Part shown: in pieces, positions 23,164 to 38,403 of the stretch
Layout: every line of letters starts with the position of its first letter
How positions within the stretch are numbered: position 1 is the stretch's first letter
From: Afipia clevelandensis ATCC 49720
GTDB lineage: Bacteria; Pseudomonadota; Alphaproteobacteria; Rhizobiales; Xanthobacteraceae
Assembly (NCBI RefSeq): GCF_000336555.1
Contig: NZ_KB375281.1
Coordinates: forward strand, 3,385,848 to 3,449,847
Reading direction: 5' to 3'
Length of the DNA: 64,000 nucleotides
Position numbers and translations under genes: made by a program
Notes under the pieces: model-generated
Databases searched by the model: none
Told to the model about the DNA's origin: nothing
Seen by the model: the letters and a program-made list of their open reading frames with translations, nothing else

Positions 23164-24960
23164 TCACGCTACGTCGGCAAGCGGCGCGCGGGGCGCCGGC
23201 TTGTTCTGGATACGATGGAGCTCCGCGTAGACGCCGCCGAGCGCGATCAGCTCGTCGTTCGTTCCTTCTTCGGCAACAATGCCATCCTTCAGGACGATGA
23301 TTTTATCGGCGTTTCTGATGGTGCTGAGACGATGCGCGATCATGATGACCGTGCGGCCCGCCATCAGCCGCCGCAGGCCCTCGATAACCAGATGCTCGGA
23401 CTCGGTATCGAGCGCCGCGGTCGGTTCATCCAGAATCATGATCGGCGAATTGCGGATCACGGCCCGCGCGATTCCGATTCGCTGACGCTGTCCGCCGGAA
23501 AGCGTATCGCCGCGCTCGCCCACGAGGGAATCATAGCCATTCGGCATACGAGAAATGAACTCGTCCGCATTGGCGACCTTTGCCGCCGCGATGATCTCTT
23601 CATCCGTGGCGCCGGGCCGGCCGTAAGCGATGTTCTCGCGAATTGTGCCGCGAAACAGCACCGTTTCCTGAAGGACAAAACCGATCTGCTCCCGCAGCGC
23701 CGCCAGCTTCATCTCCCGAATATCCTGACCGTCGATCAGAATGCGTCCGAATGTCGTTTCATAGAAACGAGGGATGAGACTGAGGACCGTCGACTTGCCC
23801 GACCCTGTTGGGCCGACAATGCCAACCACCTGTCCCGGGCGAATCTCGAATGAGACATCCCGCAACACGGACGTGTCGTTGTCGTAGCCGAATGCGACGC
23901 GGTCAAAGCGAATGCCGCCAAGGACGCGACCGGGATCTCGGGCGTCATCCGACACGCCGATGATGTCATCGGCAGACAGAATATCCTGGATGCGCTCCAG
24001 CGCGACGGTCGTCTGGGCGACAGCACTGGTCATACTGGCGAGATCTTTGACCGGTTTAAAGAATTTGGCGAGGTAAGCCAGATAAACCGTCAATGCGCCG
24101 GCCGTCATGGTGCCGGCCACGATCAGCGACGTTCCCTTCCAGAGCACAATCGCGGTGCATGCCGCGACGACGACGCTGATCAGCGGCGACAGGACCGATT
24201 TCACCTGCCGCGCGCGGAGCGCGGCGCCGACGGTCGCGTGACTCGCGGCCTCCAGTCGGGCCAGCTCCAAATCCTGGCGGCCGAAAGCCTTGATCGCACG
24301 AACCGAACCCAGGCCTTGCTGAACGACGGACAGCATCTCGCTTTGCCGGGCGCGAACCGCGCGGGTCACTTCCTTCACGGCTTTTTTCAGACGGAAGATA
24401 AAAACCAGCAGGAACGGCGTCACGCCAAGAGCGATCAGCGTAAAATCCCAGTCCAGCCAGAACATGATTCCGACCATGAACACGATGGTGATGAAATCGA
24501 CGAGGATGTCGAGAGTGGAGGACGATGCGAAACTTTGCAGCGTGTCCACGTCAGTCATGATCGTTGAGATCAGGGAGCCGATTTTCGCGTGGTCGTAATA
24601 GCGCAAGGACAGCCGGTGCAGATGCTGATAGATGCGAATCCGGAGGTCGTTCGCCACCCACTGGCCGATGTTCGTCGTGTAGTAGTTGTCGATATAGGTC
24701 GCAATCGCTCCGACGATGGCGATGACAAGTGTCGCCACTCCGGCGAATAGCGCCACGCCCATCGCATGCCGCCCAAATCCATAGTCATGAGCCCAGGCAA
24801 GCCACGCAGGCAGCTGGTGCTGCCCGAGCGCATCGTCCAGGACGAGTTTGAGGGTCCAGGGGGCCGCAAGGCTTGCAGCGATTTCCACCAGCATCGCAAG
24901 GAATACGATGAGCAGCCGTCCCCTGTAGGGGCGTAGCAAATCGATGACGAGACGTATCAT
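23164..24960 (-). CDS. ABC transporter, fused permease and ATPase (lipid/multidrug exporter type)
   Basis: A half-transporter of the MsbA/LmrA type, 598 residues from the ATG at 24960. Six membrane helices occupy about residues 1-300. The nucleotide-binding domain has Walker A GPTGSGKST, a Q-loop, the signature LSGGQRQRIGIARA, Walker B MILDEPTAALD and the H-loop HRL. The frame is open for 31 more codons upstream, but MIRLVIDLLRPYRGR is the usual start. It works as a homodimer exporting lipids or drugs. It is co-transcribed with the PLD-like gene and divergent from LysR-1. Confidence 0.93.
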   Translation of the reverse strand: MIRLVIDLLRPYRGRLLIVFLAMLVEIAASLAAPWTLKLVLDDALGQHQLPAWLAWAHDYGFGRHAMGVALFAGVATLVIAIVGAIATYIDNYYTTNIGQWVANDLRIRIYQHLHRLSLRYYDHAKIGSLISTIMTDVDTLQSFASSSTLDILVDFITIVFMVGIMFWLDWDFTLIALGVTPFLLVFIFRLKKAVKEVTRAVRARQSEMLSVVQQGLGSVRAIKAFGRQDLELARLEAASHATVGAALRARQVKSVLSPLISVVVAACTAIVLWKGTSLIVAGTMTAGALTVYLAYLAKFFKPVKDLASMTSAVAQTTVALERIQDILSADDIIGVSDDARDPGRVLGGIRFDRVAFGYDNDTSVLRDVSFEIRPGQVVGIVGPTGSGKSTVLSLIPRFYETTFGRILIDGQDIREMKLAALREQIGFVLQETVLFRGTIRENIAYGRPGATDEEIIAAAKVANADEFISRMPNGYDSLVGERGDTLSGGQRQRIGIARAVIRNSPIMILDEPTAALDTESEHLVIEGLRRLMAGRTVIMIAHRLSTIRNADKIIVLKDGIVAEEGTNDELIALGGVYAELHRIQNKPAPRAPLADVA

Positions 24961-25076
24961 TTGCCGAATTCCGGGTTGATATTGATGAAAGTCCGAGGGT
25001 TGTGCCGACGCTGGCGGCCTAACGCCCATCCGCCCAACCGGATGCCGGGACACGTACCCCCGGCCTATCGGCCGTT

Positions 25077-25105
25077 CAAATACCGCTTTGATATGAGGCT
25101 ATCGG
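25077..25105 (+). promoter_or_regulatory. Shared 29-bp element, copy 1 (ABC-PLD / LysR-1 divergent promoter)
   Basis: It reads CAAATA-N7-GATA-N6-TATCGG and matches copy 4 at 25 of 29 positions. The CAAATA end faces the ABC-PLD operon start, 117 bp away; the LysR-1 start is 168 bp away on the other side. The T-N11-A spacing of LysR sites is present. It sits in a 312-bp divergent gap. Confidence 0.75.
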
Positions 25106-25272
25106 CGGCGGATATGGCTCCCCTCCGGAAACCCGGATGGCCGGTAAACGGCAGCTGGCGCGGCTCGGTCTGAAAACGCCTTGTGCGACAGATCGGCCCA
25201 TTTGAAGTGCCGCCTCCGGACGGCTACGATTGCCGGATTGATGATGACGTGTGCTCATAAGAACCGGCGATC

Positions 25273-26199
25273 ATGCAGTTCCGGCACCTGCGCTATTTCG
25301 TTAAAATTGTCGAAGCGGGCAGCTTTTCCCGTGCCGCCGCGACGATTCATGTGGCTCAACCCGCATTAAGTCAGCAAATTGCGGACCTGGAAGACCGCAT
25401 GGGCGTGCCGCCGCTCCTGCGGACATCCCGCGGCGTTCGTCCCACCCCTGCCGGGGAAGTGCTTTACCGCGAAGCCTCCTCGATCCTCAAAGAACTTGAG
25501 CAATTGCCCGGCCTGCTGGCATCGGACGGTGCGGATGCCGAGGGCAAGGTGAGCCTCGGCTTTGCCATTTCGCTGTCGGTGCCGATGTCCGGCCCCTTTC
25601 TGGAGGCGTGCCGTGCCAGGATTCCGAAGGTCACGATAAAATTCGCAGACGGGGACAGCGAGTCCCTCGAACAGAGGATCATCTCCAATCAGCTGGACAT
25701 GGCGATCGTATTCGAGGATGAACTGGTTCCCACGTTTTCGCGCGTGCCGCTGTTCCGTCAGCGGATGTTTTTGATCAGCAGCGATCATTTCACCGACCTG
25801 AACGGACCCGTGTCGCTGAAGGACATTGCCTCATTGCCGCTGGTGCTGCCAAGCGCGCCGAATGCACGACGCATGTTGATCGATCGCTCGTTCGCCAATG
25901 ACGGAATGGCGCCCAATGTGATCGCCGAGACCGATACACTTTCGAGCGAACTGTCTGCCATTCGCGCAGGGCTCGCCCACTCCATCCTAAATGCCGGCAT
26001 GATGGGCCAGATCGGCCTCGGCCAGCCTCGGTTGATCGAGCCTCCGATCTGGATGACCTGCTCGATCATATCCTCGAGCGACTTCCCACTGACGCATGCG
26101 GGCGAAGCCGTCCGCGACACGTTGGTGCGTTTCGCCTATGAGCGAATCGAGGCGACCAAGCCGCCTGGCGCCGAATGGATCGGGCCAGCCGTGGACTAG
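25273..26199 (+). CDS. LysR-family transcriptional regulator 1
   Basis: A 308-residue LTTR: winged HTH at residues 1-60 (FRHLRYFVKIVEAGSFSRAA....ALSQQIADLE) and a C-terminal co-inducer domain of periplasmic-binding fold. It closely resembles LysR-2 at 35223 throughout, including the shared residues VIAE.D.LSSELSA in the effector domain. Nac/CynR/Cbl-like members share this N-terminal style. Divergent from the ABC-PLD operon, which is its likely target. Copy 1 of the 29-bp element lies between them. Confidence 0.93.
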   Translation: MQFRHLRYFVKIVEAGSFSRAAATIHVAQPALSQQIADLEDRMGVPPLLRTSRGVRPTPAGEVLYREASSILKELEQLPGLLASDGADAEGKVSLGFAISLSVPMSGPFLEACRARIPKVTIKFADGDSESLEQRIISNQLDMAIVFEDELVPTFSRVPLFRQRMFLISSDHFTDLNGPVSLKDIASLPLVLPSAPNARRMLIDRSFANDGMAPNVIAETDTLSSELSAIRAGLAHSILNAGMMGQIGLGQPRLIEPPIWMTCSIISSSDFPLTHAGEAVRDTLVRFAYERIEATKPPGAEWIGPAVD

Positions 26200-26462
26200 T
26201 TCTTCCGGAAGTGGTCGGGCTTGAGAAGCGTCTTCTGAGCCGGCTGAAACTCCGCCGCACAGGCCGGCGTGAGATTCGCCCTGTTCTGGCCCAGACAAGC
26301 CTCGATCTTCGCGACATTCGGAATATCCGCGCCGCAGAATCTGAACGCATCGCCCATGCAGGCCGATCTCTGATCGGATGTGCCTTGCGCGAAGGCTGCC
26401 GCAGGCAAAGCAATGAAAGCAAGACAGGCAGTGATTGCGATCGAGCTGAATTTCATTGTCAT
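26196..26462 (-). CDS. Small secreted Cys-rich protein
   Basis: An 88-residue exported protein: signal peptide about residues 1-26 (ending AAAFAQG), then a single Cys-rich repeat with the pattern CMGDAFRFCGADIPNVAKIEAC....LTPAC. This 'DAxRFCGxDIPxVxxIxxCL' style is found in Bradyrhizobiaceae secreted cysteine-rich repeat proteins; function unknown. It is convergent with LysR-1 and the stop codons overlap by 4 bp. Copy 2 of the shared element lies 74 bp upstream of its start. Confidence 0.8.
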   Translation of the reverse strand: MTMKFSSIAITACLAFIALPAAAFAQGTSDQRSACMGDAFRFCGADIPNVAKIEACLGQNRANLTPACAAEFQPAQKTLLKPDHFRKN

Positions 26463-26535
26463 GACTGGACCTGTGTTCGAATTGAATTTCAGTTTTGCCG
26501 CTACGATCGGTTTAAGGACGCATCGGAGGAAAACT

Positions 26536-26564
26536 CAAATATCATCTGGATATGGCGATATCGT
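26536..26564 (+). promoter_or_regulatory. Shared 29-bp element, copy 2
   Basis: It reads CAAATA-N7-GATA-N6-TATCG, and its inner dyad GATAT-ggcg-ATATC is perfect. The CAAATA end faces the Cys-rich exported protein gene. It lies in the gap between that gene and the downstream end of the cytochrome c gene. Confidence 0.65.
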
Positions 26565-26612
26565 CGCCAGTTATATGCGCCAACAACGTGATGACTCTTG
26601 GCGGTATGCCGG

Positions 26613-27620
26613 TCATTGCTTCTTCTTGGCGCGCGCGATCGCAGCCCGTATCGGCGCGAAGGGCCCGTATTTGTGCTGCTGCTCGCTGAAGCCGTCAGCA
26701 TAGGGACCGTAGGGCGTATCGACTGGCTTCTGAAGCAGGTCGGGAAAATCCTTTTCGAGCCCCGCCTTTTTCGGGCGCGGCTGCGATATCAGATAGGCCG
26801 CGACATCCCAGGCCTGTTCGACCGTCAGTTGAGGATTTAGATAGTCGGCACCATGCGGCATGTTGAAATGCACGAAATTCGCGGCGGTGATAAGCCGCGC
26901 CATTCCTGCGCCGTCGTTGAAACTGTCCGGTCCCCACAGCGGCGGCATCATGTACCCAAGATCGGTCGTTGGAAGACTGCGCCGGATTCCGGAACCGTCG
27001 GTGTTGTGACAGGCAAGACAGGACTTCACATAAACCGCGCGGCCGCGAACGGGATCGGCTGCGCGCTTGAGTTCGGGCATCGCGCCCGCGCCCAGCCCCG
27101 GCACGATCTGGCCTTGAGCGACACCTGACGAGAGAAATCGAATATAGGCGACGATGGCCTGCATTTCCGGGCTGTCGTTCGGCAACTCGCGCCCGTTCAT
27201 ACTGCGCACCATGCAGGAATTGACCCGATCCACGATGGTAATCTCTGCGCCGCGACGCGCACTGTACTGCGGAAATAATTCGAATAGCCCGAAAATCGGT
27301 AATCCGAATTTCTTTGTGCCGGCCTGTAAGTGACAATTGCTGCACGCAAGATTATTTCCGGCAAATCGCTTTGTCTGGTCGGGCACTTCCGGACCGATCA
27401 GTGCATATGTCGCGGTGACCAGATCGCGGCCCCGGCGTATCTGGCTGCCGAATGCATCGTTCGGTAGCGCCCCGACTTCGGGCACAGTCCAGAGCGCGGG
27501 AGCTTGGGTTTGCGCGGCCGCGAGATTCAGAGGCGCCGTTGCAAGAGCAATTGCCGCCAGCAACGCTATCCGCAATCCAAGCCGTTGGAAATCAAGGAAA
27601 TGAACGCCAGAGAACCGCAT
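26613..27620 (-). CDS. Dihaem c-type cytochrome, TsdA-like (thiosulfate dehydrogenase family)
   Basis: A periplasmic protein of 335 residues. A signal peptide (about 1-37) is followed by a first haem site CSNCH (93-97) and a second CLACH (201-205). Between them is RVNSCMVRSMNG: the Cys at 136 sits where TsdA enzymes have the Cys that ligates haem 1. NGRELPNDSPEM is also typical. TsdA joins two thiosulfates to tetrathionate or works in reverse. The start at 27620 begins the signal sequence; an upstream ATG at 27653 has no RBS. No SoxA partner or quinone reductase gene is adjacent. Confidence 0.83.
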   Translation of the reverse strand: MRFSGVHFLDFQRLGLRIALLAAIALATAPLNLAAAQTQAPALWTVPEVGALPNDAFGSQIRRGRDLVTATYALIGPEVPDQTKRFAGNNLACSNCHLQAGTKKFGLPIFGLFELFPQYSARRGAEITIVDRVNSCMVRSMNGRELPNDSPEMQAIVAYIRFLSSGVAQGQIVPGLGAGAMPELKRAADPVRGRAVYVKSCLACHNTDGSGIRRSLPTTDLGYMMPPLWGPDSFNDGAGMARLITAANFVHFNMPHGADYLNPQLTVEQAWDVAAYLISQPRPKKAGLEKDFPDLLQKPVDTPYGPYADGFSEQQHKYGPFAPIRAAIARAKKKQ

Positions 27621-27797
27621 CGCCCCTCGCACAATGGTTGATCGCACGATCATTCACGTCAGCCCGATTGCAAAGGTTCTGCAGAAGAGCTTCCTTTGCA
27701 AGCACTTTTGGCGAACCCAAAGATCCCAGCCGAATTATCCGGGCCGGCCCTGCCGGGCAATCACGAACCGGCCGGTCTCCGAACCCCATAACTTTCT

Positions 27798-27826
27798 CCG
27801 ATACCCGCATATCAACACCGTATTTG
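27798..27826 (-). promoter_or_regulatory. Shared 29-bp element, copy 3 (cytochrome c / GCG-type protein divergent promoter)
   Basis: On the minus strand it reads CAAATA-N7-GATA-N6-TATCGG and matches copy 4 at 26 of 29 positions, the best pair found. The CAAATA end faces the small secreted protein gene at 28067 (241 bp); the TsdA-like gene start is 178 bp on the other side. Confidence 0.75.
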
Positions 27827-28066
27827 TTTTCCTATCCGGCATCGACGCATATGCCGCCACGTTCAGCGGGGGCGCTGCCAGTTCGACAACCCCATGCCGG
27901 TGCTGACGATGGTGTCTTCACTGGCACACAAGCCCGCCATTCTGAGTGGCGGGTGTGACGCGGTTCAAACTTTAAGAAAGATCGAAGGAGCGCCAAGCCG
28001 AGAGGCAGCGATTGACGCTGCATGGGCTTGGCTTGGCACATCAAAGGCAAAGAGGAGAGAACTTCC

Positions 28067-28399
28067 ATGTTCACATCGAGAATGGGTATCGTCGTCGGTC
28101 TCGCATCGGCAATCGTCATTTCGGTTTGCGCGGCTGCACATGCAACTCCCATCGTTGCACCACTCACCAATCAGGAGTCGCTGACCATTCAGGTCTCCGG
28201 CGGGTGCGGTCCGAATGCCTGGCGCGGCCCATGGGGTCATTGCCGCAACACCCCGTATTACGGTCCGCTGCCGGGCGGCTACTATCAGCCCGCACCGCAT
28301 CCCGTATTCGGCTGCCCGGAAGGCTACTGGCGCGGGCCGTACGGTCACTGCCGCAACACGCCGTTCCACGGCCGCCTGCCAAATGGTCAGTGGCAGTAA
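28067..28399 (+). CDS. Small secreted Gly/Cys-rich repeat protein (GCG / RGPxGHCR type)
   Basis: A 110-residue exported protein. After a signal peptide (about 1-27) come two copies of a short unit: GGCGPNAWRGPWGHCRNTP and FGCPEGYWRGPYGHCRNTP, separated by a PLPGGYY linker. This resembles small GCG-plus-CRxxP repeat proteins frequent in Bradyrhizobiaceae. Function is unknown; each unit has two Cys, likely for disulfides. The ATG at 28067 is backed by AGAGGAGAG. It starts the run of plus-strand genes to 31544. Confidence 0.82.
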   Translation: MFTSRMGIVVGLASAIVISVCAAAHATPIVAPLTNQESLTIQVSGGCGPNAWRGPWGHCRNTPYYGPLPGGYYQPAPHPVFGCPEGYWRGPYGHCRNTPFHGRLPNGQWQ

Positions 28400-28518
28400 G
28401 ATTCCGTTGATTTGAAGAATCGCGCCGCATTTTGTGATCCTTGGCTGACGCAACCTGCGGCGCGATCTCTCTTCGCAATCCCGATTCAAACGCCAAACGC
28501 CTGCACGAGTGATTGAGC

Positions 28519-28848
28519 ATGTCGGATCGAACACGGATCTTTACACAGACTACCAGTCTCGCCAGCCACATCCTGCCGGTATCGGGCACGATGATCGGCG
28601 TTTGCGTCACACTGGTCGGCCTTGTGAAGGTTGCCGAGGCAAGATCGGGCGGCACCCATGTCGATGAGTATGCCGCGCTGGCCGCGGTCTCCTTTCTGGC
28701 ATCGGCCCTCACGTCCTACCTTTCGATCCGCTTCGCAGGGAAAACGAAGCTCTGCGCACGGCTCGAACAAGCCGCGGACATGATCTTCATTCTCGCTCTG
28801 ATGGCTATCACGCTGGTTGCGACGCTGTTTGCTTATGAAGTGATCTGA
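28519..28848 (+). CDS. Small membrane protein, hypothetical
   Basis: About 109 residues with three hydrophobic stretches (near 17-38, 50-70 and 85-108). No family is recognised. It starts 120 bp after the GCG-type gene and ends 16 bp before the DUF4403 gene, so it probably belongs to the same transcript. A TTG two codons upstream of the ATG at 28519 is a less likely start. Confidence 0.7.
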   Translation: MSDRTRIFTQTTSLASHILPVSGTMIGVCVTLVGLVKVAEARSGGTHVDEYAALAAVSFLASALTSYLSIRFAGKTKLCARLEQAADMIFILALMAITLVATLFAYEVI

Positions 28849-28864
28849 ATCACGGGAGCTAACC

Positions 28865-30310
28865 ATGATCGTTGACATGCTTCGAGAAAATTTCAAAAGC
28901 TGCCATGTCGGCGGGATTGTCACGATCGGACTTGCGACACTCCTGACGGCCTCCGTGGCGTTCGCGGACGGAAAGCCGCCGCTGGCTGCGGATACGCCGC
29001 CAGCGGCGACGGCCGATTCAAGTATCTCCGCAACCGTGCAATTCTCATTATCCGCGCTTGATCGCGCGATCGAACGCAAGGTGCCCAGGCAGCTTGCGAC
29101 CATCGACGATTCAGGGCGAAGCTGCTGGAGCCGGCGCATCCTCGGGCGCATGGTCAACATCGATTGCGAGTATTCCGGCTCCGTGCAACGGACTGGACCG
29201 ATCTCCCTGCACGCGGAAGAAGGCAGACTGATTGCGGCGATCCCGCTGTTCGGCTCCGTCTCTGGCCAGGGTATCGGACGGTTTGCGCGACTGCTGCACG
29301 GCACCGGCGAAGGCCAGCTCACAGTTTATGCGACGGCGCGGCCGCAGCTTCGGCGGGACTGGTCGGTTTCACTCGACATGACCGAAGGCTTCCGCTGGCA
29401 GGAACCTCCGACGCTCCAGATATTGGGTTTTCGCATCGATTTGACCCGCTACATCGAGCCGAAGATTCAAGCGCAGGTGTCGCGCGTGCGCCGCGATGCC
29501 GCTGCGAGCGTGGCGGCGATGAACATTCGCGGCAAAGCCGAAGCGGCCTGGCAGCAGGCGTTCTCGACCGTGAAAATTCTCGATGCGCCCGCGATCTGGC
29601 TGAAGACCACACCACGAACCGTTGCTTTTTCAGGTACGCATGCGCGCGGCGACATTCTCGAAGGCGCGATCGAAATGGCGGGAACGAGCGAGACCTTTGT
29701 CGGGCAGCAGCCGTCCGCATCTGTGCCGACGCCGCTTCCGGCACTCGGCAGCGATGTGACCAATCCCGGCGGCTTTTCCGTCATTCTTCCGGTGACGATC
29801 AGCTATGACCAGATCAGGGAAAAAATCCAGGCCGTCATGACGGCGCGCGCTCAGACCGGCGGTCCCCAAGTGCAGGATATTTCGGTCTATCCTTCTTCCG
29901 GCAAGCTGGTGATGGGATTGCATCTCACATCCGCCGATACCGCGAGCGGTGGCGCATGGATCTATCTGACCGCAACGCCGCAGGTCGATGCGAATACTCA
30001 GACCGTCCAGTTCGGAGATCTGGCCGTGGTGCCGGACTCGTCCACGGCCGCAAGCTCACCGCTTGCTGCGCTGTTCAACGATCCAGCTCTTTTGCAGGAT
30101 CTGCGGCAGCAGGCTGGTCTCGCATTCCAAAGCGAGTGGCAAACCCTTTTGGCTTCTGCCAACGCGCGATTGACCCGGCCCCTCACGGGCGGCTTTCGCA
30201 GCGAAGGAAATCTGGCGTCTGCCGGACTCTCGCAAGTCTCGCTCCTTCCCGATGGAATCCGGATCGACCTGCGCGCCAGCGGCCACTTGAAAATTCTCTA
30301 CGGCATGTGA
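28865..30310 (+). CDS. DUF4403 family exported protein
   Basis: A 481-residue exported protein with a signal sequence (about residues 16-34, cleaved near ASVAFADG). The body shows a repeated two-domain pattern typical of DUF4403, for example ISATVQFSLSALDRAIERKVP at the start, the internal PVTISYDQIREKIQAV and the C-terminal NARLTRPLTGGFRSEGNL. The family is of unknown function; some related proteins bind lipids, which would fit an envelope role but is inference. It has a 16-bp gap to the upstream small membrane protein gene. Confidence 0.82.
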   Translation: MIVDMLRENFKSCHVGGIVTIGLATLLTASVAFADGKPPLAADTPPAATADSSISATVQFSLSALDRAIERKVPRQLATIDDSGRSCWSRRILGRMVNIDCEYSGSVQRTGPISLHAEEGRLIAAIPLFGSVSGQGIGRFARLLHGTGEGQLTVYATARPQLRRDWSVSLDMTEGFRWQEPPTLQILGFRIDLTRYIEPKIQAQVSRVRRDAAASVAAMNIRGKAEAAWQQAFSTVKILDAPAIWLKTTPRTVAFSGTHARGDILEGAIEMAGTSETFVGQQPSASVPTPLPALGSDVTNPGGFSVILPVTISYDQIREKIQAVMTARAQTGGPQVQDISVYPSSGKLVMGLHLTSADTASGGAWIYLTATPQVDANTQTVQFGDLAVVPDSSTAASSPLAALFNDPALLQDLRQQAGLAFQSEWQTLLASANARLTRPLTGGFRSEGNLASAGLSQVSLLPDGIRIDLRASGHLKILYGM

Positions 30311-30344
30311 TCGCCGTTTCTCGAGCGTCGGAAGGACATCTGAC

Positions 30345-31544
30345 ATGACCCTCAGCGCTAATCTCATATTCCGGATTGTCCTCGGCGCGCTGGCAGTGTG
30401 TCAGCTTTTGGCTTTTGCTTGTCAGCAGGCGAAGGCTCAGACATCTTTCTATCAGGCATCCAATGATGAAATTGCAGGACCACCTGGCACTGTGATCAGA
30501 CAGGAGCCGATGTTCGGTGCTCCGGATGGCGCGGCTGCATATCGCGTTCTCTATCGATCCACCAATCCGGAAGGGCGGCCCATCGCAGTCTCCGGTGTGA
30601 TTGTTGTTCCGACCGGTCCGGCCCCCGAAGGCGGCCGCCCCATCGTTGCCTGGGCTCATCCCACGACAGGCGTCGTTCCGCGGTGCGCGCCCTCGCTGGC
30701 CATGTTTATCTTTCAGCAAATCGCCGGCAGCCGCCAGTTGCTCGACCGCGGCTTCGCGATTGCCGCAACCGACTATCCGGGATTGGGCACTCCCGGCCCG
30801 CATCCTTACCTCGTCGGCGACAGCGAGGCGCGGGCCGTGATCGATTCGGTTCGTGCCGCTCGCTCATTTCCCGGCGTCGCCAATGGTGACCGCTATGCCG
30901 TGTGGGGTCATTCCCAAGGCGGTCAGGCGTCATTATTCACCGGCCTGATCTCCAGGAGTTATGCCCCTGAGTTGCGTCTTGTCGGTGTGGCTGCCGCTGC
31001 GCCCGCGACCGATCTTGCCACACTGATGACAGACGATCTCAACACCACCGGCGGGAGGAATCTGACCGCGATGACAGTATGGTCATGGGATCGCGTGTAC
31101 GGCGCATCCGTCGACAAGATCGTTTCATCCGCTGCGATGCCAACGGTCAATCGCCTTGCCGGCGAGTGTATCGAATCCGTGTTCGATATCCTGCTGCGCA
31201 GCGAAACATCAAAGCCGCTGGCTCAGGATTTTCTCACCGTCGCAAATCCGGCAACTCTCGATCCGTGGCGTTCGCTGCTCGCGAAAAACACCCCCGGCAC
31301 GTTGCAGCCAACAATTCCCGTCTTCCTTGCGCAAGGCTCGACCGACGGCCTGGTTCGTCCGCAGGTCACACAAGCCTATATGCAGCGACTATGCGAGGCA
31401 GGAAGCAAGGTGCGCTTCATGATGATGCCAAACGTCAGCCACGGCTTTGCCGGCCGCGATAGCGCGGACGCCGCAACCGCGTGGATGGCGGACAGGTTTG
31501 CTGGAAACGCCGTGCCGAATGACTGCGGCTCCGCCGGTCGTTGA
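30345..31544 (+). CDS. Secreted lipase-like alpha/beta hydrolase
   Basis: A 399-residue exported hydrolase of the LIP / secretory lipase type. After a signal peptide (about 1-31) there is the oxyanion region VAWAHPTTGV, the nucleophile elbow GHSQGG, an acid Asp (probably in FLAQGSTDGLV) and a C-terminal His (NVSHGF). These are the catalytic Ser-Asp-His of a lipase/esterase. It begins 34 bp after the DUF4403 stop, in the same transcript. Its substrate is unknown; the position after an exported lipid-related-looking protein suggests work on lipids or polyesters outside the cell. Confidence 0.87.
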   Translation: MTLSANLIFRIVLGALAVCQLLAFACQQAKAQTSFYQASNDEIAGPPGTVIRQEPMFGAPDGAAAYRVLYRSTNPEGRPIAVSGVIVVPTGPAPEGGRPIVAWAHPTTGVVPRCAPSLAMFIFQQIAGSRQLLDRGFAIAATDYPGLGTPGPHPYLVGDSEARAVIDSVRAARSFPGVANGDRYAVWGHSQGGQASLFTGLISRSYAPELRLVGVAAAAPATDLATLMTDDLNTTGGRNLTAMTVWSWDRVYGASVDKIVSSAAMPTVNRLAGECIESVFDILLRSETSKPLAQDFLTVANPATLDPWRSLLAKNTPGTLQPTIPVFLAQGSTDGLVRPQVTQAYMQRLCEAGSKVRFMMMPNVSHGFAGRDSADAATAWMADRFAGNAVPNDCGSAGR

Positions 31545-31549
31545 CCTGC

Positions 31550-32875
31550 TTAATGGCTGGCGCGAGATCTTTCTTGTGCCATCATGGTTCGGCGATAGTG
31601 GATAAGGTTATCCAGCCGCTGCGCTGCCGATGTCAGTGTCGCAGCATCCGCAGCACTGTCGTCCCCAAGCGATGACTTAGAGATTTCGTCCCCGAGGAGT
31701 TCGTCAAACTCTTGCTCGATGTTGATAAGCTCCGCTTCGCTTGTCGCGCCTCTGATGCGCCGGGGCAACTCATACAGCACGCGCCATACAGGATCGGGGG
31801 CATTGGACCGGCCAAGACCAAGAAACTTCCACGCCGCCGCGAAGACCGATGCCAGCAAGCCGAAGACAATTGGCGTCAGGTAGATGGCGTCGCCGTATTT
31901 GTCCATGAAGCTTTGCTGCGCGTCGTTGTAATAAACGGCTGCGCCGGCATGTACGGGAATGTTCGCATCGGGGTCCGTATCGGGCTCTGCAATGCCGGAC
32001 AGAACCGAATGCTCAGCCACCAGACTTTCGCGGGCATTCATCAGCGACTGCGTCAGACCGGTTGCGACATCGGCATCGAGCTTGGCATGCGCAACCAGAT
32101 AGAAGCCCGTTTTGAGTGTTGTCAGGTCGTCATCCGGATTGGGCGGGGAGCCACGCAGCGTCCCCTTGGGTATTGCGAAACTCTCGAAGGCTCCCTCCGC
32201 ATCGGCAATCGCACCGGCTGAATCGATCGGCACCAATGTCGGCGAGCGACTTGAACCACCGCCAGACAGATTCCTGACATAGTCCAGGTATCGTTTGGTC
32301 AAGGGCACCACCATGACCAGCACATCCACGTCCCCGGCCTTCATGGCTCGCTGCGCGTCGGGCGGCGACAGATCCTTGAAGGTTGTGTGTCCGTCCAGGC
32401 CGTATTCACGACTGAGCGCCTTCACAAGGCGATGGTTGATCTCGCCGCCGACCACGCCGATGGATCGACCCTTGAGTTGCTCGATCCCGGTTATGGGAGA
32501 ACCGGGCGCGGCGACAATCATCACCGTCGCCTCAGCGATCACAGCGATGGCTCTTGCGTCCGAGAGATCGCCAACATCGGCCCTTACAACCGCAAGATCA
32601 ACCTTGCCGGCGGCGAAGGCCTTTGTTGCGTCCTGCACGTTGCCGAATTTGACGATGTTGAGCCTGACGGGCGCGTTCGATTTCACGAAGCGATTTGCGA
32701 TCAGCGACGCGCCCTTGGCGATCTCGCCGTCGATTGATCCGACGCCGACGCTCAGCGTCGTTGGTTTGGTATAGAGCCTGTAAGCAAACAGGACTGCGCC
32801 CAATACAAGACATGTAGCGCCGGCAACCATGACGATCCGGAGCCAAAGCGGAAGCCTGGGGGCAGATAGCCTCAT
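31550..32875 (-). CDS. TAXI-family TRAP solute-binding protein, membrane-anchored
   Basis: A 441-residue protein of the TAXI (TRAP-associated extracytoplasmic immunogenic) family, with the usual signatures GSIDGEIAKGAS... and SIGVVGGEINHRLV. An N-terminal hydrophobic segment (residues 13-31) acts as signal or anchor. Unusually, a second membrane helix (about 336-358, IYLTPIVFGLLASVFAAAW) is followed by a C-terminal cytoplasmic-looking tail with coiled-coil-like heptads. No TRAP permease gene is next to it. It follows the flavin monooxygenase gene on the same strand. The real receptor-plus-permease TAXI set is at 44434-47341. Confidence 0.82.
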   Translation of the reverse strand: MRLSAPRLPLWLRIVMVAGATCLVLGAVLFAYRLYTKPTTLSVGVGSIDGEIAKGASLIANRFVKSNAPVRLNIVKFGNVQDATKAFAAGKVDLAVVRADVGDLSDARAIAVIAEATVMIVAAPGSPITGIEQLKGRSIGVVGGEINHRLVKALSREYGLDGHTTFKDLSPPDAQRAMKAGDVDVLVMVVPLTKRYLDYVRNLSGGGSSRSPTLVPIDSAGAIADAEGAFESFAIPKGTLRGSPPNPDDDLTTLKTGFYLVAHAKLDADVATGLTQSLMNARESLVAEHSVLSGIAEPDTDPDANIPVHAGAAVYYNDAQQSFMDKYGDAIYLTPIVFGLLASVFAAAWKFLGLGRSNAPDPVWRVLYELPRRIRGATSEAELINIEQEFDELLGDEISKSSLGDDSAADAATLTSAAQRLDNLIHYRRTMMAQERSRASH

Positions 32876-32930
32876 TACAAGCACCAAAGAATGTCGCTGA
32901 TAGATAGTTTTGGTGCTGTACCGCCGCCGG

Positions 32931-34415
32931 TCAACTCGCTTTTCGTCTCAGCGCCTTAAGATAGTCGGCAACCAACCCGATATCGTTCGCCGGGACGGCG
33001 CAGGCCACATAACCGTCCGGCCGCACCAGCCAGACACCGGACGTATCCGGAGGCGGGAGCACCGATGGCTCGACCAGATCGCCAAAGTCCTCAACAAGCC
33101 CGCTCACAGCTTTGCTGGAGGCTGCCAGCAGCGTGAACCGCGGTGTCTGTCCCGCGCCAAAGGACGTCTGTCCCGACACCGGCGTCATGCGGGCGCCGAC
33201 GGCAGGACCATCGAGTCCGTGAGCCGCCGGTCCATTGAGCGGGCTTTTCTCGTAACCGACGGACACCTCCGTCATCTCGTTGACCATCGCAGCGCGCACC
33301 GGGGCAAGCCCCAGTAAAAAATGTCCGACCAGATTACGCACGATCTGCGCGGCCTGATTTCGCAAGGTTGCAAGCGCTGTAAACCGTCCAGCATTTGCCA
33401 GAACGTGTTCGCCGATTGCGCTGCGTTCGACGCTGTAGCTATCGAGCAAACTCTCGTCGCAAGCGCCACGCCAGACCATCGCCAGCTTCCAGGCAAGATT
33501 AAAGGCATCTTGCATGCCGGTATTCATGCCCTGACCGCCTGCAGGGCTGTGAACATGCGCGGCATCACCGGCAAGAAAGACGCAGCCCGATCGATAGTCG
33601 GCCACTTTGCGTTCGTTAATGCGGAACGACGAGAGCCAGACCGGATCGGAAGCGACAAGCCCGCCGGGACCTCGCTGAACGAGAACGCCCTGCACATCGC
33701 TCAGGTCGGGATCTCGTGGGTGTTCACCGGTCGACATGGGGAGATCGGCGACGATGCGATAGCGACCGGACGATATCGGAAATACCGCCAGCACACCTTT
33801 TTCATGCCAGTAGGTGGCTATCTCGGATGCCGGAAACGGAAACGCCTTGAGATGAATATCGGCAAGGATCCAGTCGCTCGGCAACGTATCGCCGACAAAT
33901 GGCATGCCAAGACCATGACGCGTCGCGCTGTGGGCGCCGTCACAACCGATCATCCATGGCACGTCGAGATTTTCGTCCTCCCCTGCGGCGCTGCGCAAAG
34001 TGGCGCAGACCGACGCAGAGCCGGGCGCAAAGCGGATCAATTCCAAGCCGCGTTCCACCTGGACGCCCAGCCGATTCAGATGTGCCTCAAGAAGACGCTC
34101 GGTCTCCGATTGAGGCAACATGAGCGCATAAGGATAGGGGCTATTCACTTCCGCGAAACTGACATGCGCAAGGAGTTTGTTGGCAGCGATGATATTTGCA
34201 GCGTCAACTTTATGACCGGCCGCAATGAACTGTCTCGTGCAACCGGCGCGGTCCAGCAACTCGAGCGTCCGGCTCCATAACACAAGCGCCTTTGACTTGT
34301 CGGAGCGCGCTGCCGCCTTGTCGATGATCCGTACCGGCACTCCATAGCGCGCGAGTTCGGCAGCCATGGTGAGTCCAACCGGGCCAGCACCAACAATCAA
34401 AACTTTTGAAGTCAT
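32931..34415 (-). CDS. FAD-dependent aromatic-ring monooxygenase (PheA/TfdB-like)
   Basis: A 494-residue flavoprotein hydroxylase. The Rossmann dinucleotide motif GAGPVGLTMAAELARYG is at residues 8-24, the DG motif IGCDGAHSATR at about 150, and the GD motif GDAAHVHSPAGGQGMNTGMQD at about 276. This class hydroxylates phenols or related aromatics with NADPH and O2. No ring-cleavage gene is adjacent, so the substrate is unknown. It is 55 bp before the TAXI gene and 70 bp after the LprI-like gene: probably one transcript. Confidence 0.88.
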   Translation of the reverse strand: MTSKVLIVGAGPVGLTMAAELARYGVPVRIIDKAAARSDKSKALVLWSRTLELLDRAGCTRQFIAAGHKVDAANIIAANKLLAHVSFAEVNSPYPYALMLPQSETERLLEAHLNRLGVQVERGLELIRFAPGSASVCATLRSAAGEDENLDVPWMIGCDGAHSATRHGLGMPFVGDTLPSDWILADIHLKAFPFPASEIATYWHEKGVLAVFPISSGRYRIVADLPMSTGEHPRDPDLSDVQGVLVQRGPGGLVASDPVWLSSFRINERKVADYRSGCVFLAGDAAHVHSPAGGQGMNTGMQDAFNLAWKLAMVWRGACDESLLDSYSVERSAIGEHVLANAGRFTALATLRNQAAQIVRNLVGHFLLGLAPVRAAMVNEMTEVSVGYEKSPLNGPAAHGLDGPAVGARMTPVSGQTSFGAGQTPRFTLLAASSKAVSGLVEDFGDLVEPSVLPPPDTSGVWLVRPDGYVACAVPANDIGLVADYLKALRRKAS

Positions 34416-34485
34416 AGCGGTTCGGGTTCCTGACGGGCTTGGTTCGTCGCGTGAGATTTACCGTGGCCAACGATTGTTGTGACAA

Positions 34486-34854
34486 TCAGAACGGTCCGCG
34501 CTGCTGGATGGATTGCATGACGGCTTCCAGCTGCTTGTCCCGCGCGGCGTAGGCAGCGCGCAGACATGCGGTGTTGGAGCCGCATGCATCACGCTGCCTG
34601 AGAAAGATGCGTTGATCGTCCTGGATCGTGCCGCGTTGTCCCATTGCGACAAGCGAGGTCGTCACCCCGTAAAGGGTCGCAACCCGTGCTTCGCTCTGAC
34701 CCAACCCGTAGTCCGAGCAGATCGTTCTCTCGGTCGGCGAACTCGCCTTCTTGCAATCCAGTGGTGAATAGTCCGCTGCATCGGCCGAGCTGAAGGCCGC
34801 GCCGAAGATGAGCAGCGCGGCTGAAACGCCGATGACACTCCTTGAAAAATTCAT
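34486..34854 (-). CDS. LprI-like (DUF1311) exported protein, lysozyme-inhibitor-like
   Basis: A 122-residue exported protein: signal peptide about 1-27 (ending SSADAAD), then the DUF1311/LprI pattern DCKKASSPTERTICSD......LYGVTT and QRDACGSNTACLRAAYAARDKQL, with four cysteines. LprI of Mycobacterium tuberculosis inhibits lysozyme; most DUF1311 proteins are unstudied. The ATG at 34854 has GAGGG 8 nt upstream. It opens a minus-strand run with the monooxygenase and TAXI genes, and copy 4 of the 29-bp element lies 138 bp upstream. Confidence 0.83.
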   Translation of the reverse strand: MNFSRSVIGVSAALLIFGAAFSSADAADYSPLDCKKASSPTERTICSDYGLGQSEARVATLYGVTTSLVAMGQRGTIQDDQRIFLRQRDACGSNTACLRAAYAARDKQLEAVMQSIQQRGPF

Positions 34855-34991
34855 GGCACATACCCTCATGGCGAAGCCGCTATTGAAGACTGCCCTTGGC
34901 GACCGCCATCGCCGAACGCGGTTCCGGCTCGCGTCCGGGTGGCAAAGAATAATTGCCGTGGCGGGACAATTGTCTGACACCGGCGGCAAAT

Positions 34992-35020
34992 CAAATACGG
35001 CTTCGATATGCGGGTATCGG
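34992..35020 (+). promoter_or_regulatory. Shared 29-bp element, copy 4 (LprI operon / LysR-2 divergent promoter)
   Basis: It reads CAAATA-N7-GATA-N6-TATCGG. The CAAATA end faces the LprI-monooxygenase-TAXI operon, 138 bp away, and the LysR-2 start is 203 bp in the other direction. The 368-bp gap (34855-35222) holds no other recognisable site. Confidence 0.75.
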
Positions 35021-35222
35021 TGACCGCTATAGCGACTGGATTTCAGCCATACGGCTGGCTGCGCATTTGCCCGCAGCGGTGGCCGACCACGCGACTATCC
35101 GGCGGCTCGATCGGGCTTCTGCCCCTTTTTAAGCCCATGTAACGCCGATCCGTGGCAAGACAAAAAGCCGAGGCCGTGCAATAGTCTAATGATTATTTTG
35201 CGGCTTTGCGGTTCGGCCTATC

Positions 35223-36149
35223 ATGCAGTACAGACAACTTCGCTATTTCGTAAAAATCGTGGAAGCCGGCAGCTTTTCCCGCGCAGCAAGCACCATCCAC
35301 GTAGCGCAGCCGGCGCTCAGCCAGCAGGTGGCTGAACTCGAAGAAGAAATGGGAATCAAGCTGCTCCACCGCACCCCGCGCGGCGTGCAGCCGACCCCCG
35401 CGGGGGAAATCCTGTTCGAGAAAGCCTCATCGATCCTGCGCCGCCTCGATGAACTTCCCGGGCTCCTGAAATCGAGCGCTGGTGACATCACTGGAACCGT
35501 CAGCGTCGGGATTGTGGCATCGCTCGCGGAGATTCTGATGGGGCCCATCGTCGAGCATATCAAGTCTGCGTTTCCCAATGTCATGCTGAAATGTACGGAC
35601 GGCGACAGCGAAACCTTGAGCGCGCGTGTGCTCGCTCACAAGCTCGATCTTGCGGTCATCTTCGAGCACGAATTCGTGCCAGCTTTTTTGCGACTGCCGA
35701 TCTTTACACAAAGGTTCTATCTGGTGGGCAAGCCGCTTCCAGGCAAAGCCAGATCGTCCATTTCAATCAAGGACATTGGGAAATTGCCGCTCGTTCTGCC
35801 CGGCGACAATAGCGAGCGCAGACGTTTGATCGATGAAGCCTTTGCCGCGCTGGACATCACTCCGAATGTCATCGCTGAAGCCGACAATCTCTCGAGCGAG
35901 CTGTCCGCAGTGCGGACCGGCATCGGTCATACGATTCTGAATGTCGGAGAATTCTCCAAGGTGGGGTTTGAGGCTTTCGCAAAGCCCCTCATCATCGAGC
36001 CGCCTATAACAATGACCTGTTCCATTATCTCGTCGGGCGATTCCACCCTGACCAATGCAGGAAGCTCCGCTCGCTCGTCGATCGCTTCGCTCATTAGCTC
36101 GTTTATAAAGGACGGTAAAAGGCCCGGCGCCGCTCTTATCAAGCATTGA
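35223..36149 (+). CDS. LysR-family transcriptional regulator 2
   Basis: A 308-residue LTTR, the same length as LysR-1 at 25273. The HTH (MQYRQLRYFVKIVEAGSFS....ALSQQVAELEEEMG) is nearly the same as that of LysR-1, which predicts overlapping operators. The effector domain is more diverged. It is divergent from the LprI-monooxygenase-TAXI operon and starts 35 bp before an MFS carrier on the same strand, probably co-transcribed. Copy 4 of the 29-bp element is in its promoter. Confidence 0.93.
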   Translation: MQYRQLRYFVKIVEAGSFSRAASTIHVAQPALSQQVAELEEEMGIKLLHRTPRGVQPTPAGEILFEKASSILRRLDELPGLLKSSAGDITGTVSVGIVASLAEILMGPIVEHIKSAFPNVMLKCTDGDSETLSARVLAHKLDLAVIFEHEFVPAFLRLPIFTQRFYLVGKPLPGKARSSISIKDIGKLPLVLPGDNSERRRLIDEAFAALDITPNVIAEADNLSSELSAVRTGIGHTILNVGEFSKVGFEAFAKPLIIEPPITMTCSIISSGDSTLTNAGSSARSSIASLISSFIKDGKRPGAALIKH

Positions 36150-36184
36150 GCCACAGCGACCAGCGCGGAATCGAGTAATAGCTG

Positions 36185-37456
36185 ATGATCGAGCCAGACA
36201 GGATCATTCGGAAGATTGGCTGGCGCCTGCTTCCTCTTCTGATGCTGCTCTTCTTTTTCAACTTCCTCAATCGCGTCAATATCGGGTTCGCTGCCCTCGA
36301 TATGAATAAATCGCTTGGGCTGCAGCCCGTCGTATTCGGCTGGGGCGCAGGCATTTTTTTTCTGAGTTACGCGATGTGCCAGATTCCGAGCAGCTTGCTG
36401 CTGCAGCGGTTTCGCGTGCGCCTGTGGATCGTCAGCATTGCGGTTGCGTGGGGGCTTGCCTCGGCGGGAATGGCCTTCGTCACGGGTTCAAAAGGCTTTA
36501 TCGTATTGAGATTGTTGCTGGGCATCGCGGAAGCAGGCTTCTTTCCAGGCTTCATCTACTATCTCAGTTGCTGGTTTCCACGCGACGCCCGCGCGCGCTT
36601 CAACGCAATCTTCCTGGTTGCCGCGCCGCTGGCAAGCATGCTGGGCAACCCGCTCTCCGGCCTCATTCTCAGCGCTGGCGAGACGATGGGAATTCCGGCG
36701 TGGCGATGGTTGTTTATCCTGGAGGGATTGCCGTCGATTGTTCTGGGCATCATTGCGTTTTTCTGGCTGTCGGACAGTCACGCACAGGCAACATGGCTGG
36801 CTCCTGGCGAGCGGCGATGGCTGGCGGATACAATCGCCGCCGAACATACAAACACAGCGAAGCTGATCGGAAGTGTCTTTGATGTCCGGGTGGCACTGCT
36901 CTCCATCGTCTCTTTCTGCTTCATCATGGGAATCTATGGCGTCGGCCTGTGGTTGCCCCAGATCGTGAGCGGTTTCGGGACAACGCCTCTCCAGACCGGG
37001 CTGCTGTCGGCGCTTCCATACGCGGCGTCGATCGGGGGCATGCTGTTCTGGAGCGCGCGATCGGACGCGCGTCGCGAACGCCGAAACCATATCGCGGCGG
37101 CGGCCATTCTTTCCGGTGCAAGCCTCATTGCAGCCTCGCAATTTCATTCGCCCGTTTTGTCACTGCTGGCGCTCAGCATCGCTGCCGCATCGATTTTCGC
37201 AGCGAATGCCGTATTGTGGACGTTACCGTCGAACTTCTTGGCCGGCAGCGCCGCTGCAATCGGGATCGCGATCATCAACTCGATCGGAAATCTGGGCGGC
37301 TTTACCGGGCCATATCTCGTGGGCTGGGTAAAAGCACATACAGGAGGCTTTGGTCCTGCTCTTGTATCGTTGGGCGCCATCAGTGCAGTTGGCGGCCTCC
37401 TCATTCTCATTGCGCCGTGGGTTTTTCGGCGATTGAAAGTAGCCGGTTTCGAATAG
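36185..37456 (+). CDS. MFS transporter, anion:cation symporter (ACS) type
   Basis: A 423-residue inner-membrane carrier with about 12 helices. N-terminal features are RIIRKIGWRLLPLLMLLFFFNFLNRVNIGFA and LGLQPVVFGWGAGIFFLSY, typical of ACS-family importers of organic acids (phthalate, tartrate, glucarate). The helix 4-5 loop is PGFIYYLSCWFPRDARAR. It directly follows LysR-2 and is probably in its transcript. The substrate is unknown; an aromatic acid would fit with the nearby flavin monooxygenase. Confidence 0.9.
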   Translation: MIEPDRIIRKIGWRLLPLLMLLFFFNFLNRVNIGFAALDMNKSLGLQPVVFGWGAGIFFLSYAMCQIPSSLLLQRFRVRLWIVSIAVAWGLASAGMAFVTGSKGFIVLRLLLGIAEAGFFPGFIYYLSCWFPRDARARFNAIFLVAAPLASMLGNPLSGLILSAGETMGIPAWRWLFILEGLPSIVLGIIAFFWLSDSHAQATWLAPGERRWLADTIAAEHTNTAKLIGSVFDVRVALLSIVSFCFIMGIYGVGLWLPQIVSGFGTTPLQTGLLSALPYAASIGGMLFWSARSDARRERRNHIAAAAILSGASLIAASQFHSPVLSLLALSIAAASIFAANAVLWTLPSNFLAGSAAAIGIAIINSIGNLGGFTGPYLVGWVKAHTGGFGPALVSLGAISAVGGLLILIAPWVFRRLKVAGFE

Positions 37457-37530
37457 CGACGGTAACAGCGAGGTGGAGTAGCCCGGCTAATCCGTCGCAG
37501 ATACAGGCATTTCTCCAGCTATATCGCGCG

Positions 37531-37559
37531 CGAATAGGTGGATATCGAAGTCATATTGG
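37531..37559 (-). promoter_or_regulatory. Shared 29-bp element, copy 5 (most degenerate)
   Basis: On the minus strand it reads CCAATA-N7-GATA-N6-TATT and matches copy 4 at 20 of 29 positions, including an unbroken CTTCGATAT. The CAAATA-like end faces the gene at 37618, 59 bp away, as in all other copies. Confidence 0.5.
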
Positions 37560-37617
37560 TACTCCCAGATCTGGTTGGATAAACGTCCTGCGTCAATTCA
37601 ACCGGAAGGAATACAAA

Positions 37618-37896
37618 ATGTTCGATATGCTCAATTCACGAAGGACTTTCATGCGCGTCACTGCGGCCGCAGCTCTTGCCATTGCCGTAGCTGCTCCGAT
37701 CGCAAGCGCTCATGCCGAGCAAGGCAATATGGATCGCGCGCTCATGTCGTTGCAGGACGCCCTTCAATCATTGCGTCAGGCGACCCCGAACAAGGGCGGC
37801 CACAAGGAAGCGGCCTCGCAACTGATCGAACAGGCGATTATGCAGGTCAATGAGGGAATTCGCTTCGCCAATCAGCATGGTGGCGGCGGTCGTTAA
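37618..37896 (+). CDS. Small exported protein, hypothetical
   Basis: A 92-residue protein. Residues 1-32 form a signal peptide with an Arg pair near the start (LNSRRTFMRVTAAAALAIAVAAPIASAHA). The mature part is helical (MDRALMSLQDALQSLRQATP and QLIEQAIMQVNEGIRFANQ) and ends in GGGGR. The ATG at 37618 has GGAAGGA at good distance. No family is recognised. The amphipathic helical mature domain suggests a small periplasmic binding or assembly factor. Confidence 0.75.
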   Translation: MFDMLNSRRTFMRVTAAAALAIAVAAPIASAHAEQGNMDRALMSLQDALQSLRQATPNKGGHKEAASQLIEQAIMQVNEGIRFANQHGGGGR

Positions 37897-37971
37897 AATT
37901 CTGCACGGATGCGAGCTGCCGACGGTTACGTCGGCGGCTGCGTCGTCACACTTAAAAAACTCGAGGTTCTC

Positions 37972-38262
37972 ATGAGAACATTGCTCGCGAGTATTATTTT
38001 GGTCGCGCTGACAGCGGTGTCCCACGCGACAGAGGCCTCATACAAATGTGACGACGGATCGTCGCTGAAGGCTGATTTTAGCGCGCCTGGTCCGACGGGG
38101 TCGGTGCAACTCGCCATATCGGGTCAGAAGCCAATCACACTCCCACAAGTCCAGTCTGCGGATGGCGGCCGATATGCCGCACAAGGGATCGAATTCTGGA
38201 TCAAGGGAGCGGCCGGGCGATTAACGCGAGCGGGAAAGATTACGGAGTGCCGCTCACGGTAG
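37972..38262 (+). CDS. MliC-like lysozyme inhibitor
   Basis: A 96-residue exported protein with a signal peptide (MRTLLASIILVALTAVSHA) and the MliC pattern: YKCDDGSSLKADF, a conserved LPQVQSADGGRYAA and FWIKGAAGRLTRAGKITEC. MliC/PliC proteins block c-type lysozyme by inserting a conserved Ser and Lys into its active site; both residues have plausible counterparts here (S in QSADG, K in WIKG). It follows the small exported gene by 75 bp. A copy of the shared element lies upstream of that pair. Confidence 0.8.
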   Translation: MRTLLASIILVALTAVSHATEASYKCDDGSSLKADFSAPGPTGSVQLAISGQKPITLPQVQSADGGRYAAQGIEFWIKGAAGRLTRAGKITECRSR

Positions 38263-38308
38263 TGCATTTCCGCAACTATCGTTTCTCAGTTCCCGGCGCG
38301 GTTTGAAT

Positions 38309-38356: not shown

Positions 38357-38403
38357 GCATCGCCTGCGATCCGGCGACCACGACATGAGATACAACCGGA
38401 GGC

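Follow-up and report, generated by a model that had tools for sequence, protein, structure and literature searches.

We have analysed a repeated intergenic element in a 64,000-nucleotide stretch of the Afipia clevelandensis ATCC 49720 genome (contig NZ_KB375281.1, positions 3,385,848 to 3,449,847), hereafter the window, whose coordinates are used below. The element occurs five times between 25076 and 37560. Each copy is very probably the operator-promoter of an operon controlled by two resident Nac-like LysR-type regulators, LysR-1 and LysR-2, through effector-dependent activation, and the five copies would make up one local regulon. This reading is based on sequence comparison, and draws on the architecture of the sites, their confinement in the genome, their co-occurrence with one LysR clade and the genes that recur behind them.

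Five copies in one stretch of the genome

The initial annotation had described five intergenic copies of a 29-bp element sharing the string CAAATA-N7-GATA-N6-TATCG. All five places stand, with 6 matches in the window at three or fewer mismatches (one a self-overlap of copy 1) versus 0.38 expected and a maximum of 4 in 100 shuffles. The full string is exact in four copies, at 25077(+), 26536(+), 27798(-) and 34992(+), and the part of the claim that extended it to the copy at 37531(-) did not hold, since that copy is degenerate and carries three mismatches (CCAATA...TATTC). Over the 29 positions, copies 1, 2, 3 and 5 agree with copy 4 at 25, 19, 26 and 20, which reproduces the earlier hand counts for copies 1, 3 and 5. 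Every copy lies outside the named genes, as had been claimed, with some spurious-looking open reading frames in other frames overlapping sites 2, 3 and 5; the orientation rule also holds in 5 of 5, the CAAATA end pointing at the target, and copies 1 and 4 are indeed found in the divergent regions of LysR-1 and LysR-2, respectively. The sites, given on the strand of the operon that they face, and the two regulator genes are as follows.

25076..25118 (-): predicted operator-promoter site 1, dyads 25101-25115 and 25080-25094, -35-like TTGAAC at 25074-25079, predicted transcription start about 25044; faces the ABC-PLD operon
26535..26577 (-): site 2, dyads 26560-26574 and 26539-26553; faces the Cys-rich exported protein gene
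27785..27827 (+): site 3, dyads 27788-27802 and 27809-27823; faces the GCG-TM-DUF4403-lipase genes
34991..35033 (-): site 4, dyads 35016-35030 and 34995-35009; faces the LprI-monooxygenase-TAXI genes
37518..37560 (+): site 5, degenerate, dyads 37521-37535 and 37542-37556; faces the small exported protein and MliC genes
25273..26199 (+): LysR-1, Nac-like LysR-type transcriptional regulator (LTTR)
35223..36149 (+): LysR-2, Nac-like LTTR

In the whole genome (one contig, 4,399,548 bases), a search for the 28-mer string at two or fewer mismatches returned, besides the four exact copies, three unrelated places with two mismatches. These three look like chance; the one viewed, near genome position 2156616, precedes a gene presumably of a metallo-beta-lactamase-fold/rhodanese-like type. 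With an extended pattern the window sites have 0, 0, 0, 0 and 2 mismatches, and the random genome-wide matches that the initial annotation had named as counter-evidence were not seen, the rest of the 4.40-Mb genome having nothing at two or fewer mismatches. Allowing three mismatches adds three unrelated places and a self-overlap of copy 2, versus 3 matches of the reversed control pattern.

That all copies lie inside one 12.5-kb stretch would also suit a small repeat, a mobile sequence or a promoter duplicated with its operons, devoid of regulatory meaning. The orientation of the copies is locked, though, their spacing to a -10-like hexamer is fixed, and the dyads have been kept where the flanks diverged, in three proteobacterial classes; we find this explanation hardly credible.

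Two LysR-type dyads joined to a predicted promoter

A 29-mer matrix from the five window sites was scanned over the window and 25 related loci (L numbers below; G numbers denote genomes), and rows above 16 were taken; the reversed sequence reached 18.1 with this matrix, so the weakest accepted rows overlap the control range. The window and 23 of these loci contributed to the 51 aligned rows, L075 and L076 giving none, and all rows are oriented towards the target gene; a match at L078 20833 lay too close to the end of its stretch to be aligned. Two rows, L073 19369 and L056 8430 (the latter within the monooxygenase gene), lack the upstream ATA described below and were dropped as chance. The matrix, dyad and target counts use the 49-row set, and column counts over 51 rows include both dropped rows.

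Our results show that the element is longer than the 29 bp first proposed, about 36-43 bp. A further ATA is conserved 10 bp upstream of the 29-mer (48, 49 and 42 of 51 rows), outside the stretch used for selection. Read towards the target, the module is ATA-N9-KAT-A-N5-ATA-N9-TAT-TTG followed by a -10-like hexamer at 17-bp spacing, that is, two 15-bp T-N11-A LysR dyads with centres 21 bp apart, abutting a -35-like TTG. The T-N11-A motif noticed at the outset is present twice: its T and A are kept in 47 and 48 of the 49 rows in dyad 1, and in 49 and 49 in dyad 2. Exact halves occur in 38/49 rows for dyad 1 (ATA/[GT]AT) and in 48/49 for dyad 2 (ATA/TAT), the latter score being inflated because dyad 2 lies inside the selected stretch. 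On the target strand the base after ATA in dyad 2 is T in 31, G in 14, C in 4 and A in 2 rows (n=51), and G precedes TAT in 40 of 51. The GATA-N6-TATC dyad of the initial annotation was rejected as the recognition unit, being present in only 15 of 49 aligned rows; two ATA-N9-(T/K)AT dyads take its place.

Downstream, TTG is exact in 33/49 rows, and scores for a -10-like hexamer are highest at +49, which corresponds to a 17-bp spacer after TTG (3.68 versus a mean of 1.59, standard deviation 0.43, for 54 offsets scored in the 38 non-redundant rows); A stands at +50 in 30 of these 38 rows (column mean 7.2, standard deviation 4.3). The transcription starts predicted for sites 1-5 are 25044, 26503, 27859, 34959 and 37592, which would place the dyad centres at about -64 and -43.

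The fixed distance to the conserved A at +50 could also reflect a promoter of an alternative sigma factor instead of an activator site. A long double dyad upstream of TTG and a 17-bp spacing suit sigma-70 with an activator, however, and there is no sigma gene among the 16 named genes of the block. We consider an alternative sigma factor highly improbable, and rejected it, as we did the mobile repeat.

The contact between the downstream dyad and the -35-like TTG bears on the sign of the control as well. With the same operator and LysRs, a dimer on the -35-proximal dyad could mainly repress, blocking RNA polymerase until an effector releases it, and an excerpt of PMC6628147 reports that BenM/CatM tetramers can also repress, via sites 1 and 3. 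In our alignment, however, no conserved third dyad lies over the -10, since beyond position 29 only columns 32, 46, 50 and 52 stand out among the 51 rows; a pair of conserved dyads centred at about -64 and -43 is how activating sites are usually arranged, and the promoters look weak. Repression is thus unlikely, although it retains some weight, and activation is the reading that we follow below.

The sites follow one clade of LysR proteins

LysR-1 and LysR-2, which are 53% identical, both score above the Pfam cut-offs for PF00126 (HTH_1) and PF03466 (LysR substrate-binding) and are LysR-type proteins. Their best NCBIfam model is NAC (NF008410), with 196.4 and 200.8 bits, below the equivalog cut-off of 309. 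They are the only close members of this Nac-like clade in the genome: the next LysR is 28% identical to LysR-2, and a third LysR of the genome, scoring 142 bits on the NAC model, is placed by our tree outside the clade (L013). LysR-2 matches 26 solved structures, BenM entries among them, the best row being 3fzv, a probable regulator. At E <=1e-60 this LysR was found in 3 of 101 genomes (own included), with two copies each, and family-wide in 17 of 391 genomes, nine of which have two copies.

The site has a similar distribution. The 28-mer at one mismatch occurs in 13 of the 101 genomes (own included; the reversed control gave 3 matches): four times each in the own genome and G016, always near the LysRs; in G054 once beside the LysRs and once elsewhere; and as 11 scattered matches in 10 of the 98 other genomes. 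When built solely from the five sites of the window, a 43-mer matrix outscores all controls in 27 of the 33 relative loci, the controls being 33 reversed loci (best 15.6) and 37 loci of other LysRs (best 21.4). When the 49-row matrix was applied to eight further genomes (L128-L135), matches above 20 were obtained in five, L128-L132 (only 20.8 in L131); L133 had one match of 15.4 far from the LysR, and L134 and L135 had none above 10. The maximum of this matrix over the 37 other-LysR loci (314,469 bases) was 8.4. Loci L080-L091, with weaker or partial LysR matches, served solely as negative controls.

In a tree of 50 rows, a site scoring at least 20 lies within 3 kb in 39 of 43 clade rows, a count in which rows from one locus share sites. 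These rows belong to Alpha-, Beta- and Gammaproteobacteria, class labels that we assumed from the genus names. The clade rows with no site within 3 kb are L075 and a sister group, L133-L135, whose three loci, all close relatives, carry an ATA-N9-TAT dyad no more than 100 bp away from the 3' end of the LysR gene.

The site is located within 100 bp past the LysR 3' end in 12 of 15 beta- and gammaproteobacterial loci (L066 and L070 have it 1.0 kb and 1.6 kb after the LysR, and L076 elsewhere). We therefore rejected a mainly autoregulatory role and assign the site to the target promoter. The conservation between species that the initial annotation had asked for was found, with sites preceding related genes in other genera. 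Its proposal of one putative LysR regulon linking the region is supported by the genome-wide confinement, by the sites accompanying this LysR clade but not the loci of other LysRs, and by the kept position before related genes.

The regulator sequences also support control by these LysRs. In the recognition helix, residues 28-33 (AQPALS) and Q35 are invariant in all 42 rows that have letters at these positions. The five Dyella-type rows have K at position 34, and their five sites all have T at position 1, versus 3 of the other 46 rows; the correspondence between K34 and this T is suggestive, within one clade.

Could another regulator, encoded elsewhere, own the operator, with the LysRs as passengers? 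Sequence is what connects LysR binding to the element, and five Dyella-type loci also have an AraC regulator behind the site. On the other hand, LysR is the sole regulator seen in all site-bearing loci, the sites track its clade, and the element is built of LysR-type T-N11-A dyads, and so we regard a foreign regulator as quite improbable and attribute the sites to the two LysRs.

Several loci of these surveys merit comment on their own. At L075 (Bradyrhizobium sp. Leo170), the extracted LysR open reading frame lacks its DNA-binding end, and 20.9 kb contain no site and none of the usual targets, as if the module were decaying together. L069, on a contig titled Candidatus Eremiobacteraeota, is a Dyella-type locus with its LysR nested among Dyella rows, and is likely mis-binned or transferred. 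The contig of L058 is titled Frankia sp. RB7, a title that looks wrong: its LysR pair is identical to that of G261, a genome placed in the family of the window. More distant LysRs (38-45% identity over about residues 1-278) are present on plasmids H1-H13 of Bradyrhizobium, Mesorhizobium, Rhizobium and Sinorhizobium, 11 of the 13 being predicted conjugative.

Genes behind the sites

The genes behind the five sites, and the transporter gene behind LysR-2, are the following.

22165..23151 (-): PLD-family protein, second gene behind site 1
23164..24960 (-): MsbA-like ABC exporter, below the NCBIfam MsbA cut-off, first gene behind site 1, start inferred
26196..26456 (-): small Cys-rich protein with a signal-like start and no family match, behind site 2
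28067..28399 (+): GCG_CRPN-type secreted protein, first gene behind site 3
28513..28848 (+): small membrane-type protein without a convincing match to any family
28865..30310 (+): DUF4403 exported protein, predicted TULIP lipid-binding
30345..31544 (+): secretory lipase family (PF03583)
31550..32887 (-): NMT1-like/TAXI-type solute-binding protein
32931..34415 (-): FAD-dependent monooxygenase, below the NCBIfam cut-offs
34486..34851 (-): LprI-like protein, Pfam 21.9 versus a cut-off of 22, first gene behind site 4, start inferred
36185..37456 (+): MFS transporter, below the NCBIfam cut-offs, behind LysR-2
37618..37896 (+): small Tat-type exported protein, weak Pfam Tat-signal match, behind site 5
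37909..38262 (+): MliC lysozyme-inhibitor family protein

The ABC and LprI genes probably start at 24960 and 34851, because the starts of their longest open reading frames, 25053 and 34989, lie upstream of the predicted transcription starts.

Related genes are found behind the sites of other genomes, where gene calls were made by script and not curated. Among 58 sites scoring above 20 (L136, which is the L058 locus, was excluded), the gene faced within 600 bp belongs to a listed family in 47 cases, a descriptive figure that carries no chance estimate. AtuA-DUF4387 heads 17 site-led operons, and in all 17 a distance of 77-87 bp separates its start and the site (AtuA matches number 31 overall, including fragments and second paralogues). 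Operon heads are also formed by GCG_CRPN (7 of 8 members), the small Tat-type protein (5/5), LprI (2/2), the Cys-rich protein (3/7), DUF4403 (3/9), the ABC exporter (2/8), the monooxygenase (1/4), a small family, c22 (1/3), one LysR and, in Dyella-type loci, AraC (5 of 8 matches). The lipase (9 of 14), PLD (4 of 5) and the small membrane-type protein (6 of 7) are never heads and stand behind a site. Gene order varies between genomes, and many operon heads retain the site. In the genome of the window, no close AtuA-DUF4387 was found, with one partial match at 30%.

DUF4403 has been predicted to be a TULIP lipid-binding protein, according to an excerpt of PMC6791001. Together with the secretory lipase, the MsbA-like exporter, PLD and the LprI/MliC lysozyme-inhibitor families, it suggests that the predicted products serve envelope and lipid functions.

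A SoxA/TsdA-like cytochrome c gene (26613-27653) between sites 2 and 3 is faced by no site and was not found in the other loci scanned. Past the -10, several alphaproteobacterial AtuA/DUF4403 operons (L061, L062, L060, L057 and L056) have, by eye, a GGGCA...TGCCC-type inverted repeat in the leader, possibly an attenuator or leader hairpin. The predicted 5' leader of GCG_CRPN is, by arithmetic, of the same length (about 208 nt) in the window (27859-28067) and in L056 (2931-3139); that of the window has no Rfam match, and from 22000 to 39000 Rfam at the gathering threshold matched a tRNA alone, with no RNA element at the sites.

Comparison with known LysR systems and proposed mechanism

NAC of enterobacteria, the best NCBIfam model for both regulators, recognises sites of consensus ATA-N9-TAT. 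Unlike NAC, both LysRs score under the equivalog cut-off and would govern a local block, not a nitrogen regulon. In LTTR promoters as described in an excerpt of PMC4834489, a primary T-N11-A site lies near -65 and a second site towards -35. Our module shares the T-N11-A motif, and from the predicted starts its dyad centres would fall at about -64 and -43. The secondary site of that excerpt consists of contacts with non-conserved sequence, whereas here it is a conserved dyad (48/49 exact, with the selection bias noted), and the site follows the LysR gene in most beta- and gammaproteobacterial loci instead of occupying a divergent region. BenM and CatM of Acinetobacter (benzoate/muconate) are likewise LTTRs; an excerpt of PMC6628147 gives for BenM a site 1 consensus of ATAC-N7-GTAT, with T-N11-A in dyad symmetry, and a site 2 that overlaps -35. 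In contrast, many promoters here have two near-consensus dyads, the alignment shows no conserved site 3, a single block would have five operons under this control, and dyad 2 is mostly ATA[TG]-N7-GTAT on the target strand, so that ATA-N9-TAT is kept and the full ATAC-N7-GTAT is not. For CysB, tetramers on two such site pairs have been proposed, according to an excerpt of PMC11329422.

We propose that a LysR tetramer would bind both dyads, with the first of its DNA-binding dimers at about -64 (upstream dyad) and the second at about -43 (downstream dyad); two turns of the helix would separate the dimers, and they would share a face of the DNA. On arrival of an effector the regulator would touch RNA polymerase, as suggested by the downstream dyad abutting the -35-like TTG, and activate an intrinsically weak sigma-70 promoter. 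Five such promoters would constitute one local regulon for envelope, lipid and export functions, carried as an accessory block. The system is best read as a self-contained LysR regulon under control of a known type, in which the double dyad is unusually strict.

Some of our observations weigh against this proposal. Because dyad 2 falls within the matrix used to select the 49 rows, its conservation is inflated. Site 5 is degenerate. A simple consensus scan detected no sigma-70 promoter at any of the five sites; the promoters would therefore be weak and dependent on an activator. The 43-mer matrix misses 6 of 33 loci (L075, L076, L131 and L133-L135), and the best 49-row-matrix match in L076 (29) faces away from its AtuA gene. 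Many rows of the tree come from loci whose sites trained the scoring matrix. No listed family is faced by 11 of the 58 sites, and the family list was drawn up after the loci had been viewed. Finally, 8 of the 17 LysR-carrying family genomes have a single LysR, which leaves the need for two unexplained.

The regulator-plus-switch set recurs beside related genes in distant bacteria, and so has the look of a portable gene circuit that comes ready-made. More tentatively, and with somewhat less than even confidence, we suggest that the regulator, often as a paralogous pair, and the strict two-dyad operator travel together between classes of Proteobacteria, while lipid, envelope and small secreted operons join, leave and reshuffle, their heads keeping the operator. 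If true, these operons would form a hitherto undescribed envelope or lipid response that an effector triggers and that has an AtuA-DUF4387 enzyme as its older core, and the operator alone would suffice to list its members in any genome. In the open-licence literature, the terms that we used retrieved no paper on the operator or the regulon. Because no other place in 4.40 Mb comes within two mismatches, the element is a genome-specific handle that would place DUF4403, AtuA-DUF4387, GCG_CRPN and the small exported proteins (Cys-rich and Tat-type) in a single response; their shared function could then be tested by finding one effector. The sites also offer a natural series for how LysR tetramers read two dyads, both near-consensus, in many promoters of three proteobacterial classes.

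The accessory block beside tRNA-Arg

22092..38403 (no strand): accessory block with both regulators, the five sites and all targets
38404..38480 (-): tRNA-Arg(CCG), right edge of the block

This 16.3-kb block is bounded by a GGDEF gene, which ends at 22091, and by tRNA-Arg(CCG), and is absent from this place in both congeners examined. In G026, the stretches matching 20148-22030 (the GGDEF gene) and 38404 onwards (the tRNA) are 98 bases apart, and in G001 about 1.9 kb with other genes occupies the same place; 22091-38404 is thus an insertion here or a loss there. Among 29 genomes of the genus, the LysRs are carried by the own genome and G016, where neither flank gene was found at the thresholds used, so its copy lies elsewhere or in an assembly without the flanks. 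With no integrase among the 16 named genes, the block was not classed as an integrative tRNA element. When a 27-bp piece from near the 3' end of the tRNA was searched against the window at three or fewer mismatches, no second copy was found, and island integration by duplication of the tRNA end was rejected on this ground. The G+C content is 0.57-0.62 inside the block versus 0.62-0.64 in most 2-kb windows just outside.

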